From positions 62,001-126,000 of the forward strand of contig NZ_FOZK01000005.1 of the NCBI RefSeq assembly GCF_900114435.1: DNA of 64,000 nt. Direction: 5' to 3'. The DNA is from Halomicrobium zhouii (GTDB lineage Archaea > Halobacteriota > Halobacteria > Halobacteriales > Haloarculaceae). The notes under the pieces are model-generated. The model made no database searches. It was not told where the DNA came from and worked only from the letters and a program-made list of their open reading frames with translations. The position numbers and the translations under genes were made by a program. Shown here piece after piece: positions 4,852-11,863 of the stretch (positions within the stretch are counted from its first letter, which is position 1; every line of letters starts with the position of its first letter).

Positions 4852-6963
4852 CTACCGCCCCTCGGGGTCGAACAGCTCCTGGAACACCTTCTGCTGGGCG
4901 GCTCGCAGGTGCTGGTGGTAGGTCGGCCGGGAGATGTCCATCCCCTCGGCGAGCTCGTCGCCGTCGACCTCCCGGGGCCAGTCGAAGAACCCGCCGAGGA
5001 AGGCCGTCCGCAGGGCCGTCTCCTGGCGGTCGGTGAACCGGTCGAACAGCGCGGCGCGGAACTCCTGCTGGGTGTGGACGGGGCGCTCGTGCTCGTGGTA
5101 GCCCACGAGGTCGGTGTTGTCGTAGCGCTCGTCGACGAGGCCGAACACGTCGCGGGCCTCGGCTTCGTAGGGGAGTTCGATAGTGTAGCGGACGACGCCG
5201 TGTTCGCTCTCGATGCGCTTGGGGACGGCCCCCAGGTCGACGAGCGTCTCGACGAGCGACCCGTCCACGGTCACGTCGAACAGCGCCTCGCCCTCGTATT
5301 CGGCGACACGACTGGCGGCCGTGACCGCCCCGTCGTCCTGGAGCGCGTCCATGACGTCGTCGCTGTCGGCCCCGGTGGTGGTGAAGTAGATGCGCAGCGA
5401 GCCGTCCTCCTGGGTGACGGTCCCGGTGGAGCTGATCAGGGCGCCCGTCGTGGCCGAGAGCCGGGAGAACAGCAGGTCGTGGTCCTCGACGGCGAACTCC
5501 AGTTCGATCACCCGGTCGGCCGAGAGGATGCGCCCGCTCTCGAAGGCGTTGATGGTGTTGGCGACCGCGCGGCCGAGTGACTCCAGGACGACCTGCTCGC
5601 GACCGTCGAAGGCGTCCTCCCGGCCCGCACAGACGTAGAGGACGCCGTAACTGGCGTCGGTGTACTCGAGCGGGATGGCCATCACCGACTCGACGCCGGC
5701 CTCGTGGGCGGTCCGGAGCCAGCCCGACTCTGCCTCGGCCAGCGCGCGCACGTCGACGACCTGCGATTCGCCCGTCTGGTAGGCGGCCGCGCCCGGCGAG
5801 TCGCCGTCCATCGGCACGCTCTCGTCGGCGACGTAGAGGTTCGTCTCCCCGGTCCACTCGTGGGCGACCAGCGCCTCGCCGCGGACGTCCGGGCGGGCCA
5901 GCCAGGCGAAGACGTACGGGTCCGCCGCCGCGAGCTGGGTGCAGACGCCGAGTTCGACTTCCTCGCGCGTGTGGGCCTCGACGAGCACCTCCACGGTGTC
6001 CTGGACGAGTCCCTCGATGCGGTCGAGGATGGTGGCGATGCGGTGGCGCGCCTCGCGGACCTCCCGTTCCCGGCGGGCCCGGTTGCACGCAGCCGCCGCG
6101 TTAGTGGCCAGCAGCGCCGCCATCGTTCGGTCCACTTCGTCGAACGCGCCTGGCGTCGTCGCGCCGATGCTCAACGTTCCGTGGACGCCGATGGGGAAGA
6201 ACATCGCTCCCCGGACGGGGTCGCGGTCGAAGTCGTCCTCGAGGGTCTTCACGTCGTCGTACACCGCCGGCTCGCCGGAGGCGAACACCTTCCCCGGCAG
6301 TCCTTCGTCGAGGCTGTACGTCGGGCGATCACCCATCCGCTCGACGGCGTTCTCGCTGGCGGCGACGGGTTCGAGCACCCCCTCTTCGGGGTCGTACAGC
6401 CGGACGACACTCATGTCGTAGTCCAGCACCGTCTCGACGGCCCGCGTCACGACGGCGGCGATGGACTCGCGGCTGGGCGCCTGCATGAGATCCCGCGAGA
6501 TGGCCTGGAGCTGTGTGATGGTCTCCGGGCTCTGCGCGACGCTCGTGGGGGCTCCGTCGCCAGCACGCTCGATAGCTGCGTTCCCGCTCTCGGCCTCCCG
6601 GTGTGCCCGTTCGATCCGGTGTGCGAGGACGGCGTAGCGTTCGTCGCCGCTCCGCTGGACGTAGTCGGCCGCGCCGTCGGCCAGCACCGCCTCGACGGAC
6701 CGCTCGTCGCCGTCGCCGAACAGGACGACCGGCGCCTCCGGGTGTCGCTCGCGGATGCGTTCGAGGACGGTCTCCTCCGTCCCGTCGGCGACCAGGCAGT
6801 AGGCGTCCGCCGACTCCCCCGATTCCCCCGATTCCCCCACCGCCCCAGATTCCGGTGCCGTCGCGACAGCGAACGAGTCCGTGAGCTTCCGGAGCGTGCT
6901 CGCGGTCCGGGCGACTGCCTTCTCGTCGGCCCCCGTCACGACGACTGTTGGTCCCTCGGCCAT
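4852..6963 (-). CDS. Receiver-like, double GAF, HTH_10 regulator
   Basis: The 703-residue protein starts with a degenerate receiver-like domain (about 1-125; VVVTGADEKAV, APVVLFGDGDE, GAADYVQRSGDE) without the usual acidic pocket. A GAF domain follows at about 160-300, a second GAF at about 340-490, then a bacterio-opsin-activator domain (about 500-640) and C-terminal HTH_10 (YHQHLRAAQQKVF). It is inferred to be a sensory transcription regulator, paralogous to the gene at the window's left edge. Residues near 45-55 read GESGESGES, encoded by 9-bp tandem repeats at about 6815-6840, a likely slippage site. A TATA box and a small palindrome lie directly upstream (6966-6995), placing a leaderless transcript at the ATG. 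Confidence 0.9.
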   Translation of the reverse strand: MAEGPTVVVTGADEKAVARTASTLRKLTDSFAVATAPESGAVGESGESGESADAYCLVADGTEETVLERIRERHPEAPVVLFGDGDERSVEAVLADGAADYVQRSGDERYAVLAHRIERAHREAESGNAAIERAGDGAPTSVAQSPETITQLQAISRDLMQAPSRESIAAVVTRAVETVLDYDMSVVRLYDPEEGVLEPVAASENAVERMGDRPTYSLDEGLPGKVFASGEPAVYDDVKTLEDDFDRDPVRGAMFFPIGVHGTLSIGATTPGAFDEVDRTMAALLATNAAAACNRARREREVREARHRIATILDRIEGLVQDTVEVLVEAHTREEVELGVCTQLAAADPYVFAWLARPDVRGEALVAHEWTGETNLYVADESVPMDGDSPGAAAYQTGESQVVDVRALAEAESGWLRTAHEAGVESVMAIPLEYTDASYGVLYVCAGREDAFDGREQVVLESLGRAVANTINAFESGRILSADRVIELEFAVEDHDLLFSRLSATTGALISSTGTVTQEDGSLRIYFTTTGADSDDVMDALQDDGAVTAASRVAEYEGEALFDVTVDGSLVETLVDLGAVPKRIESEHGVVRYTIELPYEAEARDVFGLVDERYDNTDLVGYHEHERPVHTQQEFRAALFDRFTDRQETALRTAFLGGFFDWPREVDGDELAEGMDISRPTYHQHLRAAQQKVFQELFDPEGR

Positions 6964-6995: not shown

Positions 6996-7056
6996 ATACT
7001 GTCGCTCGCCGAACAGGTGCCCCCGACAGCCCGCCTGCCCGGTCGCGATAGGCCCC

Positions 7057-7326
7057 TCAGCGGTCGAGTTCGGTGACGTCGACGGCGCCGCTGCCAGTCA
7101 CCGACACCGCACAGCCCGCGTAGGTGAACTCGACGCGCACGGGCGGCGCGGTGGTCGTCGGTCCGTCGCCCGCTACCAGCGCGTCCAGCGCGTCCGGGTC
7201 GAGGACGCCGTACAGTGGCTCGAGCGTCATCGGATCCGAACCGGTCTCCGCCGCGACGGCGGCGACGACAGCCTGACTCGCTGACTCCGAACTCGCCGTC
7301 TCGACCGCACCCAGTGTCGTAGACAT
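7057..7326 (-). CDS. HalOD1 domain protein
   Basis: The 89-residue protein is a stand-alone HalOD1 output domain, a small alpha/beta domain common in haloarchaeal signalling proteins. The hallmark segments are DPMTLEPLYGVLDPDALDALV and the C-terminal two-strand region VRVEFTYAGCAVSVTGSGAVDV. Its biochemical role is not established. A second HalOD1 protein at 60281-60550 has the same layout. The ATG at 7326 (MSTTLGAVET) is preferred to an ATG five codons upstream because the homologue starts at a similar distance from the domain. It precedes the large regulator on the same strand but has its own 95-bp spacer containing that gene's promoter. Confidence 0.8.
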   Translation of the reverse strand: MSTTLGAVETASSESASQAVVAAVAAETGSDPMTLEPLYGVLDPDALDALVAGDGPTTTAPPVRVEFTYAGCAVSVTGSGAVDVTELDR

Positions 7327-7665
7327 GTTCTGTCCGTACACTATCGACCCCCATTTCTCCAGTGGCTATCCCTGTAGTGGCAGGCCGATTTCGGGGGCTA
7401 TTCTGATAGGGGTCGGGTGACGAGGTGACCCGCTGATTCGGTCGTACTGGTCGTCGCCGGCGCGTCTCGGGCGGGAACGAGTGGACCTGGATGGGGCTTT
7501 GGAACGACTCACATCACTGACGGCGGCAGTCGCTCCTCACGTCCGTTCACCGGAGCGGCAGAGCCGCCCCGAGCCCTCACTCACTCTGTTCGCGAGGACC
7601 TCGCAGAATGGTTCGCGGCTCCGCCGCTCGCCGTTTCGAGGTTCTCACTGCGTTCGAACCTCCTA

Positions 7666-7687
7666 TGCGCCGTTCGGGAATTGAACC
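7666..7687 (-). repeat. Partial copy of tRNA-Gly 3' end (att-like)
   Basis: These 22 bases match the 3' end of the tRNA-Gly gene (7798-7819, discriminator through T arm) at 21 of 22 positions, in the same orientation and 132 bp away. A direct repeat of a tRNA 3' end is what remains when a tyrosine-integrase element inserts in a tRNA gene. The 110 bases between the copies hold no integrase, only a third, inverted T-arm-like stretch (GGGTTCAATTCCCGG, 7746-7760). The rest of the gap, 7327-7665, holds short GC-rich inverted repeats and no gene I can support. Confidence 0.6.
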
Positions 7688-7797
7688 AGAGGGAGACGTT
7701 CCGGGCGTGCGGCGCTATCGCGCCGTTCCGGGGCTGCGACTCCCAGGGTTCAATTCCCGGTGACGATGATGTCTCTCACTGGCGTTCGAGACAATCA

Positions 7798-7868
7798 TGC
7801 GCCGTCCGGGAATTGAACCCGGGCTCTAGCCTTGGGAAGGCTATGTCCTACCACTGGACCAACGGCGC
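7798..7868 (-). tRNA. tRNA-Gly (anticodon CCC)
   Basis: The minus strand folds as a full cloverleaf. The acceptor arm GCGCCGT pairs with ACGGCGC and is followed by discriminator A. The anticodon arm is TAGCC-TTCCCAA-GGCTA, giving anticodon CCC, and the T arm has the loop sequence GTTCAATTC. No CCA is encoded and no intron is seen. A TATA-like AATATTT lies at 7884-7890, about 20 nt upstream. Confidence 0.95.
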
Positions 7869-7995
7869 TCACTCGGTTCGGCCAAATATTCCCCGTGGCG
7901 TCACTTGAACGTAGCGCTTCGCTCGAACTGCCCGTTCGTCCGGAAACGTTGCGCCATCGGGGAGCTATTTGTCGCTCGACGGCCAAGAGTCGTCC

Positions 7996-8829
7996 ATGTC
8001 CGAGTCCACCACTGTCCGGCGGGCGGAGTCGCCGCTGGACGTCTCGTTCTCCGAGGACGAACTGGCGGCCCACCGCGAGCACATCACCGGGTTCATCGAG
8101 TCGATGGTCGCGGAGGCGGGGGCCGACGGGGCGGTCATCGGCCTCTCCGGCGGCATCGACAGCACGCTCACGGCCTTCCTCGCCGTCGAGGCGCTGGGCG
8201 CCGATTCGGTGTACGGCCTCGTGATGCCCAGCGAGGTCAACCGGGAGGCGAACATGAGCGACGCCGAGCGCGTCGCCAGCGACCTGCTGGGCATCGAGTA
8301 CGACGTCGTCGGGATCGAACCCATCGTCGACACCTTCCTGGAGGCCTACCCCGACGCCGAGGGCGACACGATGGCGGAGGGCAACCTCATGGTCCGCACG
8401 CGCGCCGTGCTGAACTACCTCGCCGCCAACCACCGCAACGCGCTCGTGCTCGGCACCGGCAACAAGAGCGAGGCGCTGGTGGGCTACTTCACCAAGTACG
8501 GCGACGGCGCCGTCGACTGCCACCCCATCGCCAACCTCTACAAGGCCCAGGTCCGCCAGCTGGCCAAACACGTCGACGTCCCCGCCGACCTGGCCGAGAA
8601 GACCTCCTCGGCGGAGATGTGGGTCGGCCAGACCGACGAGGAGGAGATGGGGCTGGACTACCCGACGCTCGACTCCATCCTCGCGCTCCATATCGAGGGC
8701 GGCGTCTCCAAGTCCGCGACGGCGAAGGAGATCGGCGTCGACGAGGCCGCCGTCGAACGCGTCCGCGAACTCAACACCCAGAGCGAGCACAAGCGCCACG
8801 TCCCACCGGAGCCGGACCCGCTGTACTGA
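7996..8829 (+). CDS. nadE: NAD+ synthase
   Basis: The 277-residue protein is an N-type ATP pyrophosphatase of the NadE family and catalyses the last step of NAD synthesis (nicotinate adenine dinucleotide to NAD+). The ATP-binding P-loop SGGIDST is at about residues 50-56, and the family motifs GTGNKSEALVGYFTKYGDG and EKTSSAEMWVGQTDEEEMG follow. No glutaminase domain is fused, so ammonia is probably the direct nitrogen donor, as for short NadE enzymes. The ATG at 7996 (MSESTTVRR) is preferred over one nine codons upstream, as the extra residues look non-coding. It reads away from tRNA-Gly. Confidence 0.95.
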   Translation: MSESTTVRRAESPLDVSFSEDELAAHREHITGFIESMVAEAGADGAVIGLSGGIDSTLTAFLAVEALGADSVYGLVMPSEVNREANMSDAERVASDLLGIEYDVVGIEPIVDTFLEAYPDAEGDTMAEGNLMVRTRAVLNYLAANHRNALVLGTGNKSEALVGYFTKYGDGAVDCHPIANLYKAQVRQLAKHVDVPADLAEKTSSAEMWVGQTDEEEMGLDYPTLDSILALHIEGGVSKSATAKEIGVDEAAVERVRELNTQSEHKRHVPPEPDPLY

Positions 8830-11619: not shown

Positions 11620-11691
11620 GCCTGGGTAGCTTAGCGGTAAAGCGCGTCCTTGGTAAGGACGAGAGCCCGGGTTCAAATCCCGGCCTAGGCT
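11620..11691 (+). tRNA. tRNA-Thr (anticodon GGU)
   Basis: The sequence folds as a cloverleaf. Acceptor GCCTGGG pairs with CCTAGGC (one G-T pair) and is followed by discriminator T. The anticodon arm is CGTCC-TTGGTAA-GGACG, giving anticodon GGT, and the T arm has loop GTTCAAATC. No encoded CCA and no intron. A weak TATA-like CGACTAAAG lies about 25-35 nt upstream. Confidence 0.95.
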
Positions 11692-11863
11692 CTTCTCGAA
11701 AAACAAATTGCGAGCGACGCGTTTCATCGCGCCGCGTCCCTGTTGTGGTTCGAGCCGTATCCGGGAGTTGAAGGAGACCAGCCCCAGACCCGGAACGGCC
11801 GAGCGACAGAGAGACCGCAGGCCCGGACCGTCTTCTTCCGGTTCGAATCCGTCCGCTCGTCCG

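Follow-up and report, generated by a model that had tools for sequence, protein, structure and literature searches.

The 3′ ends of tRNA genes are classic landing sites of mobile DNA. Integron cassette arrays, for their part, are anchored at one end and carry attC sites that are imperfect palindromes in a fixed orientation; their inner parts are variable, and the number and order of their cassettes change. The cassettes hold ORFs with attC R and L boxes, and an integron integrase is linked to the array. At a single locus of Escherichia coli, tyrT, 178-bp tandem repeats lie downstream, each with the tRNA 3′ end, and are the source of rtT RNA. Integration targeted to tRNA genes by tyrosine recombinases leaves the tRNA whole and its 3′ end repeated beside the gene (PMC8371274). 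The SMR-A/B elements of Haloquadratum walsbyi are described as non-coding, about 80-110 bp in size, with prominent inverted repeats, a strong preference for palindromic targets and an enigmatic mobilisation; the SMR types show high sequence conservation (commonly above 95%), do not duplicate their target and have other mobile elements as targets (PMC3119063).

This study concerns a small hairpin unit beside a tRNA gene, and the family to which it belongs. The window, i.e., the whole stretch of DNA that was analysed (64,000 nucleotides; G000:C5:62001-126000), lies in the 4.25-Mb genome under study, G000, and is haloarchaeal, the relatives found in searches being named haloarchaea. The arrays of such units behave as an integron cassette array does, being anchored, palindromic, oriented and of shifting number and order; unlike integrons, they hold no ORFs (at about 95-215 bp, the units have no room for a usual gene) and have no PF00589 match near them, and their presumed joint is the tRNA T-loop with its GTTCAAAT-like box. 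Tandem repeats here, as at tyrT, each hold a tRNA 3′ end, but they form a family with an inverted T-arm and a core hairpin, which in three congeneric genomes occurs at no less than a third of the tRNAs. The units share with tRNA-targeted integration (PMC8371274) the 3′-end repeat adjoining the gene and a tRNA that stays whole; they differ in having no integrase by a PF00589 search and no cargo, in spanning about 130 bp rather than kilobases, in forming tandem arrays, and in carrying a common core at many tRNAs. They are like the SMRs (PMC3119063) in being haloarchaeal and non-coding and, more loosely, in size and palindromic habit. In contrast to the SMRs, the units take their outer arms from the host tRNA and duplicate a tRNA end of about 22 bp; their cores diverge (74-86%) and their targets are tRNA genes. 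Since some defining features of integrase scars, SMRs and integrons are lacking, the units are set apart from all three, though they work like them. Such arrays were not found described in the open-access full-text literature searched, most subscription journals lying outside the search, nor do the available parts of PMC3119063, PMC8371274 and PMC4983044 describe them. On balance, we favour the reading that the units are non-coding hairpin cassettes, a family of haloarchaea for which tRNA 3′ ends serve as anchors and which undergo exchange, at the DNA level, at the T-loop.

The Unit behind tRNA-Gly(CCC)

The array in the window is anchored by tRNA-Gly(CCC), which occupies positions 7798-7868 of the minus strand with its 3′ end at 7798 (ARAGORN; Rfam, 69.1 bits). 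Read on the same strand in the tRNA direction, the 3′ end is followed by a trailer hairpin of the form TGATTGTCTC-loop-GAGACATCA (7797-7767), by an inverted copy of the tRNA T-arm, designated I (7760-7746), by the core hairpin AGTCGCAGCC...GGAACGTCT (7741-7694) and by D, a copy of the tRNA 3′ end that runs from the T-loop to the last base (7687-7666). An earlier note on this DNA had pointed out that 7666-7687 repeats the last 22 bases of tRNA-Gly, at 21 of 22 positions, in the same orientation and 132 bp away, and that an inverted T-arm copy lies at 7746-7760; both observations hold. Three features are added here to that account: the core (7694-7741), the trailer hairpin (7767-7797) and, behind tRNA-Thr, another unit that has decayed. 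Trailer, I and D were recognised in the sequence, I pairing with D in folds. The core has homologues and is matched by a covariance model at G000:C5:69692-69744 with a value of 1.1e-14, a figure to be read with the window unit itself in the training set of the model.

The stretch 7660-7772, which includes both arms, folds into one long hairpin with -59.2 kcal/mol on the plus strand and -54.1 kcal/mol on the tRNA strand (z -3.7 and -4.3, respectively); on either strand, 0 of 200 shuffles were equally stable. In an Rfam search of 7000-8400 with E up to 1, the tRNA alone scored above its gathering score, five other entries falling far below theirs. The second unit of the window is anchored by tRNA-Thr(GGT) at 11620-11692 on the plus strand (ARAGORN). 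It extends over 11760-11859, with a core at 11777-11835 (plus strand) that is visible in the sequence and matched by the covariance model at 5.1e-7, and with a D, at about 11840-11859, that agrees with the tRNA end at fewer than 16 of 20 positions.

At tRNA-Gly(CCC) of G006, a close relative, the window unit has a counterpart whose core holds a further, nested hairpin. By eye, trailers like that of the window unit also occur at tRNA-Gly(CCC) in L035 and L146, but with different cores. The earlier note had counted against its own reading the case of the same copy in all relatives with no insert anywhere. That case did not arise, tRNA-Gly(CCC) of three genomes of the same genus (G001, G002 and G003; L053-L055) having no unit within 600 nt. 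A larger element bounded by the tRNA-Gly repeat was absent from the tRNA-Gly(CCC) loci read, over downstream stretches of up to 600 nt.

Frequency and Distribution

A copy of each tRNA's own last 20 bases was sought in the 700 nt downstream of all tRNAs matched by Rfam, namely 53 in this genome, 51 in G006 and 50 in G004. At 18/20 or better, D was found downstream of 21/53, 18/51 and 16/50 tRNAs and upstream of 0/53, 0/51 and 2/50, respectively; with the end of an unlike tRNA as a control, the means were 0.7, 0.4 and 0.14, with a maximum of 4 in 50 rounds for this genome. Relaxing the threshold to 16/20 in this genome gave 21 downstream, 1 upstream and a mean of 1.2 with an unlike end. As a class, the downstream copies therefore exceed what chance would give.

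A search of the genome with the window unit returned diverged copies, the matches of at least 49 bases being 74-86% identical to it. Thirteen of the 17 loci scanned hold a tRNA (ARAGORN, bacterial settings), and two more (L003 and L017) lie behind an intron-bearing tRNA (Rfam). The core covariance model, trained on units that include the window unit and some others from this genome, has 19 matches here. Across the phylum, covariance model R1 under strict filters matched 48 of 392 genomes, all of the same order, a count that is a lower bound, R1 covering the commonest cores. Of 48 model-match loci that were read, 19 belonging to this genome and 29 to other genomes, 45 were located behind a same-strand tRNA, and an opposite-strand tRNA lay within 700 nt of none. 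The displaced tRNA-Ile unit discussed below is among the three loci that depart from this rule. Counted over the tRNAs fetched rather than over all tRNAs, D is present at 6/20 of those read in G045, which belongs to another family of the same order and has no R1 match at E 1e-5; five of the six show an inverted T-arm within the 70 nt inspected. In eight further genomes, which belong to the phylum but not to the order, D is present at 1/56 of the tRNAs read, and no inverted T-arm was visible there. Finally, a pattern scan of named genomes yielded 53 stretches, 35 of them under haloarchaeal titles. A same-strand tRNA was called within 900 nt upstream of 30 of these 35, with D at 18/20 or better in 23 of the 30, and no same-strand tRNA was called within 900 nt upstream of any of the other 18 stretches.

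Two further places in the genome may be recorded. A dense cluster of tRNA genes, L167 (G000:C2:253000-258700), is without downstream D at 16/20, and its only unit is a core unit with a non-matching D behind tRNA-Arg(TCG). An orphan core fragment of 33 bp, 97% identical, lies at G000:C2:340603-340635 (L012, L181), about 4.5 kb from a tyrosine-recombinase ORF (C2:335535-336071); no tRNA was called near it in L012.

Modular Architecture and Host-Specific Arms

Loci follow the pattern tRNA-(trailer-I-core-D)n, in constant orientation in the loci read and with units of about 95-215 bp among those read. The stretches from I to D measure 43-141 nt, and their inverted ends are the T-arm of the host tRNA. 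Among 11 loci compared, the outer arms are like the T-arm of the adjacent tRNA in most and the core AGTCGCAGCC...GGAACGTCT is common; Arg(TCG), Ala(CGC) and Leu(GAG) are the loci of this set without a good D. A list of 145 units was drawn from 214 tRNA loci at a loose D threshold of 16/20, which lets in a few likely chance pairs, some of them in the tRNA cluster, and I was found in 123 of the units. Where tRNA ends with the same anticodon differ between genomes, the letter in D is that of its own tRNA 1078 times, that of another genome's tRNA 40 times and neither 41 times, in counts whose positions are not independent and which include a few miscalled anticodons.

The inner parts are combined differently. 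Pairs of units among the 123 with I share trailer and core in 11 cases, the trailer only in 12 and the core only in 51, at thresholds of 0.85/0.65 and 0.9/0.6 and with pairs that are not independent; in 47 of the 51 core-only pairs, the two tRNAs differ in their ends. At tRNA-Phe, the first units of G000 and G006 differ in core but are 89% alike in trailer, and the core motif is absent from some units. Judged by this sharing of sequence, trailer and core are separate modules.

In three units, i.e., L034 (tRNA-Gly of G006), L224 (tRNA-Ser(GGA) of G004) and L182 at about 4868-5000 (the displaced tRNA-Ile unit of G000), a piece of about 50 bp made of two small hairpins occupies the same core site with AGTC on both sides; it reads as a nested hairpin insertion within the three cores. 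At an intron-bearing tRNA, comparison by eye of L168 (G000) with L243 (G006) shows one trailer-hairpin loop inverted, 12 of 13 letters agreeing after reversal.

Turnover between Close Species

The genomes G000 and G006 were compared at 44 tRNA genes paired by sequence and upstream flank; in 26 of the pairs, one or both genomes carry units, with D taken at 16/20. Copy number is unequal at 16 of the 26, a figure that includes one likely chance match in the tRNA cluster and the displaced tRNA-Ile array, and the tRNA is intact where unit number or order differs. At tRNA-Glu(TTC), five tandem units are present in G006, in the order P-Q-P-Q-R and each with a D of 20/20, and two in G000. Ser(TGA) has three common units (0.99, 0.94 and 0.88 identical), whose order is A-B-C in G000 but B-A-C in G006. 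It counts against this case that the two loci are just 57% identical in their upstream flanks, though the DNA behind the arrays is 89% identical over 169 bp. At Ser(GGA), Leu(GAG) and Lys(CTT), units are present in one genome and absent from the other, and the DNA behind the array resembles the stretch that directly adjoins the tRNA in the other genome at 77%, 87% and a weak 62%, respectively. At Leu(GAG) and at Lys(CTT), where G000 has two identical units, the DNA behind the array is also like a trailer inside it, so that tandem duplication or deletion explains both cases too; Ser(GGA) is the clearer case of presence and absence.

The Insertion at tRNA-Ile and Searches for an Agent

At tRNA-Ile of G000, about 39 kb of DNA (G000:C2:783050-822460; ends in L265 and L266) separate the tRNA from its unit. 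This displaced unit lies outside the insert, has a decayed D (15/22) and, by eye, a trailer like that of the second unit of G006, which adjoins tRNA-Ile. Also by eye, G006 carries two units between tRNA-Ile and DNA like the start of the insert, whereas in G000 such DNA comes directly after the tRNA. The earlier note had taken the repeated tRNA 3′ end as the mark of integration by a tyrosine integrase. Its prediction that larger DNA used the tRNA 3′-end junction is supported at tRNA-Ile; a tyrosine integrase may be the agent. A search for PF00589 (E <= 0.001), which could miss more distant recombinases, gave five matches in the genome, none of them in the insert of about 39 kb and none within 10 kb of a listed tRNA, and no recombinase linked to the units was found among these matches. 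No integrase appeared in a crude motif scan of the ORFs at both ends of the tRNA-Ile insert.

The window unit had no match by blastn (E 0.01) in 50,697 phage and 72,556 plasmid records. A viral origin was considered and rejected: 20 stretches of viral contigs carried the exact core pattern in two scans, and the 900 nt upstream of each were free of any called tRNA.

Folding at the DNA or RNA Level

Alignments of 12, 35 and 26 hand-picked units were used. In the 12 units, which share one core type, 95.4% of cells are paired and 28 cells are double-changed versus 8.5 in shuffles, for a structure that was drawn from those same sequences; pairing falls to 27-51% when the partner is slid along. These double changes lend support to the predicted hairpin. 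The 151 single mismatches within stems include 21 G.T, 25 A.C and 62 T.T, and the near parity of G.T and A.C means that neither strand is favoured as RNA. In 67 of 117 units, the fold of the tRNA strand is slightly the better of the two (Wilcoxon p 0.06). Selection at the RNA level was set aside as a candidate, neither the wobble test nor the strand-energy test being significant. Most long cores have a CAG/AA loop; together with the T.T mismatch and the constant orientation, it suggests a reader, protein or RNA.

Proposed Model and Alternative Explanations

In the favoured reading of hairpin cassettes exchanged at the DNA level, the joints would lie at the T-loop box GTTCAAAT, present in D as well as in I at every tRNA. 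At loci other than Leu(GAG), the T-arm is where D starts, and cores that differ from tRNA to tRNA border on identical T-loop letters, GAAC/GTTC. At Leu(GAG) (L179 in G000, L214 in G006), a hairpin interrupts the T-arm of a 3′ tRNA-Leu fragment, which is repeated in tandem in G006. From these boundaries we infer that the T-loop would be the joint. Such joints would allow trailers and cores to be swapped and cores to move between tRNAs, the arms remaining those of the host. The agent could be a site-specific recombinase acting in trans; another candidate is recombination at short homologies, helped by the formation of hairpins. With its joints at the tRNA 3′ end, such exchange would leave the tRNA whole and make it a safe harbour, and each D would be a spare attachment site. 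By default, the units would be regarded as selfish or neutral elements. A more specific proposal, put forward tentatively and with considerable doubt, is an ORF-less cassette-recombination system, in which the T-loop would serve as the recombination box and a trans-acting recombinase reading folded single-stranded hairpins would capture, move and permute cassettes; such reading of hairpins would account for the constant orientation and the conserved T.T mismatch.

The arrays could also stem from ordinary repeat slippage, with tandem duplication or deletion between repeats of 20-25 bp and with palindromes that arise when replication switches template; a special joint would not be involved, nor would units move from one tRNA to another. 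The two identical Lys(CTT) units of G000 and the P-Q-P-Q order at Glu in G006 are what slippage would leave; Leu(GAG) resembles a tandem duplication, and tandem duplication alone would yield both Leu(GAG) and Lys(CTT). Alike cores in 47 unit pairs at tRNAs with different ends, within host-specific arms, are not easily produced in this way, however, and a conserved core in a single orientation is left unexplained, which makes slippage rather unlikely. The constant orientation downstream of tRNAs is natural for a structured RNA or transcript-level element, be it a tRNA trailer, a terminator, or a maturation or regulatory hairpin. A hairpin conserved with double changes (28 vs. 8.5 shuffled, 12 units) fits it as well, the conserved core and the T.T mismatch could serve an RNA, and the better folding of the tRNA strand in 67/117 units (p 0.06) leans the same way. 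Against this stand the 21 G.T and 25 A.C mismatches, the more than half of tRNAs that have no units, the variability between close species and the units that lack the core motif, and we consider an RNA-level role unlikely.

The explanation offered in the earlier note, that the interval is a remnant left when a larger integrase-borne element was excised or decayed, would have each unit be such a scar. It draws on the tRNA 3′ end being directly repeated from the T-arm onward and on the insert of about 39 kb at tRNA-Ile with the same junction. The interval proved instead to be an entire repeat unit, and the family it belongs to has many copies, a conserved core and members that stand singly or in tandem behind many tRNAs. 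That the units are complete, tandem and modular with a core in common, that the window unit has no phage or plasmid match at E 0.01, that 20 viral core-pattern stretches are without a tRNA upstream and that the tRNA-Ile unit lies outside the insert make scars very improbable. Hardly any credence can be given to D copies being kept as decoy attachment sites that draw integrating viruses off the tRNA: the insert-start-like DNA that comes after two units in G006 and directly after tRNA-Ile in G000 (by eye) would suit such decoys, but it is a single case, I and the core are not needed for it, and a decoy would have little to protect, the tRNA normally being restored when an element integrates at its 3′ end.

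Implications

Under the favoured reading of tRNA-anchored hairpin cassettes, the sequences concerned are tiny non-coding hairpins that, in three congeneric genomes, follow 32-40% of the tRNA genes, and a short tRNA-end repeat in a haloarchaeon need not imply a lost provirus. The arrays would be a readout of recombination in archaea and, should the ORF-less cassette-recombination proposal be true, tRNA genes would be the anchors of integron-like arrays of attachment sites.
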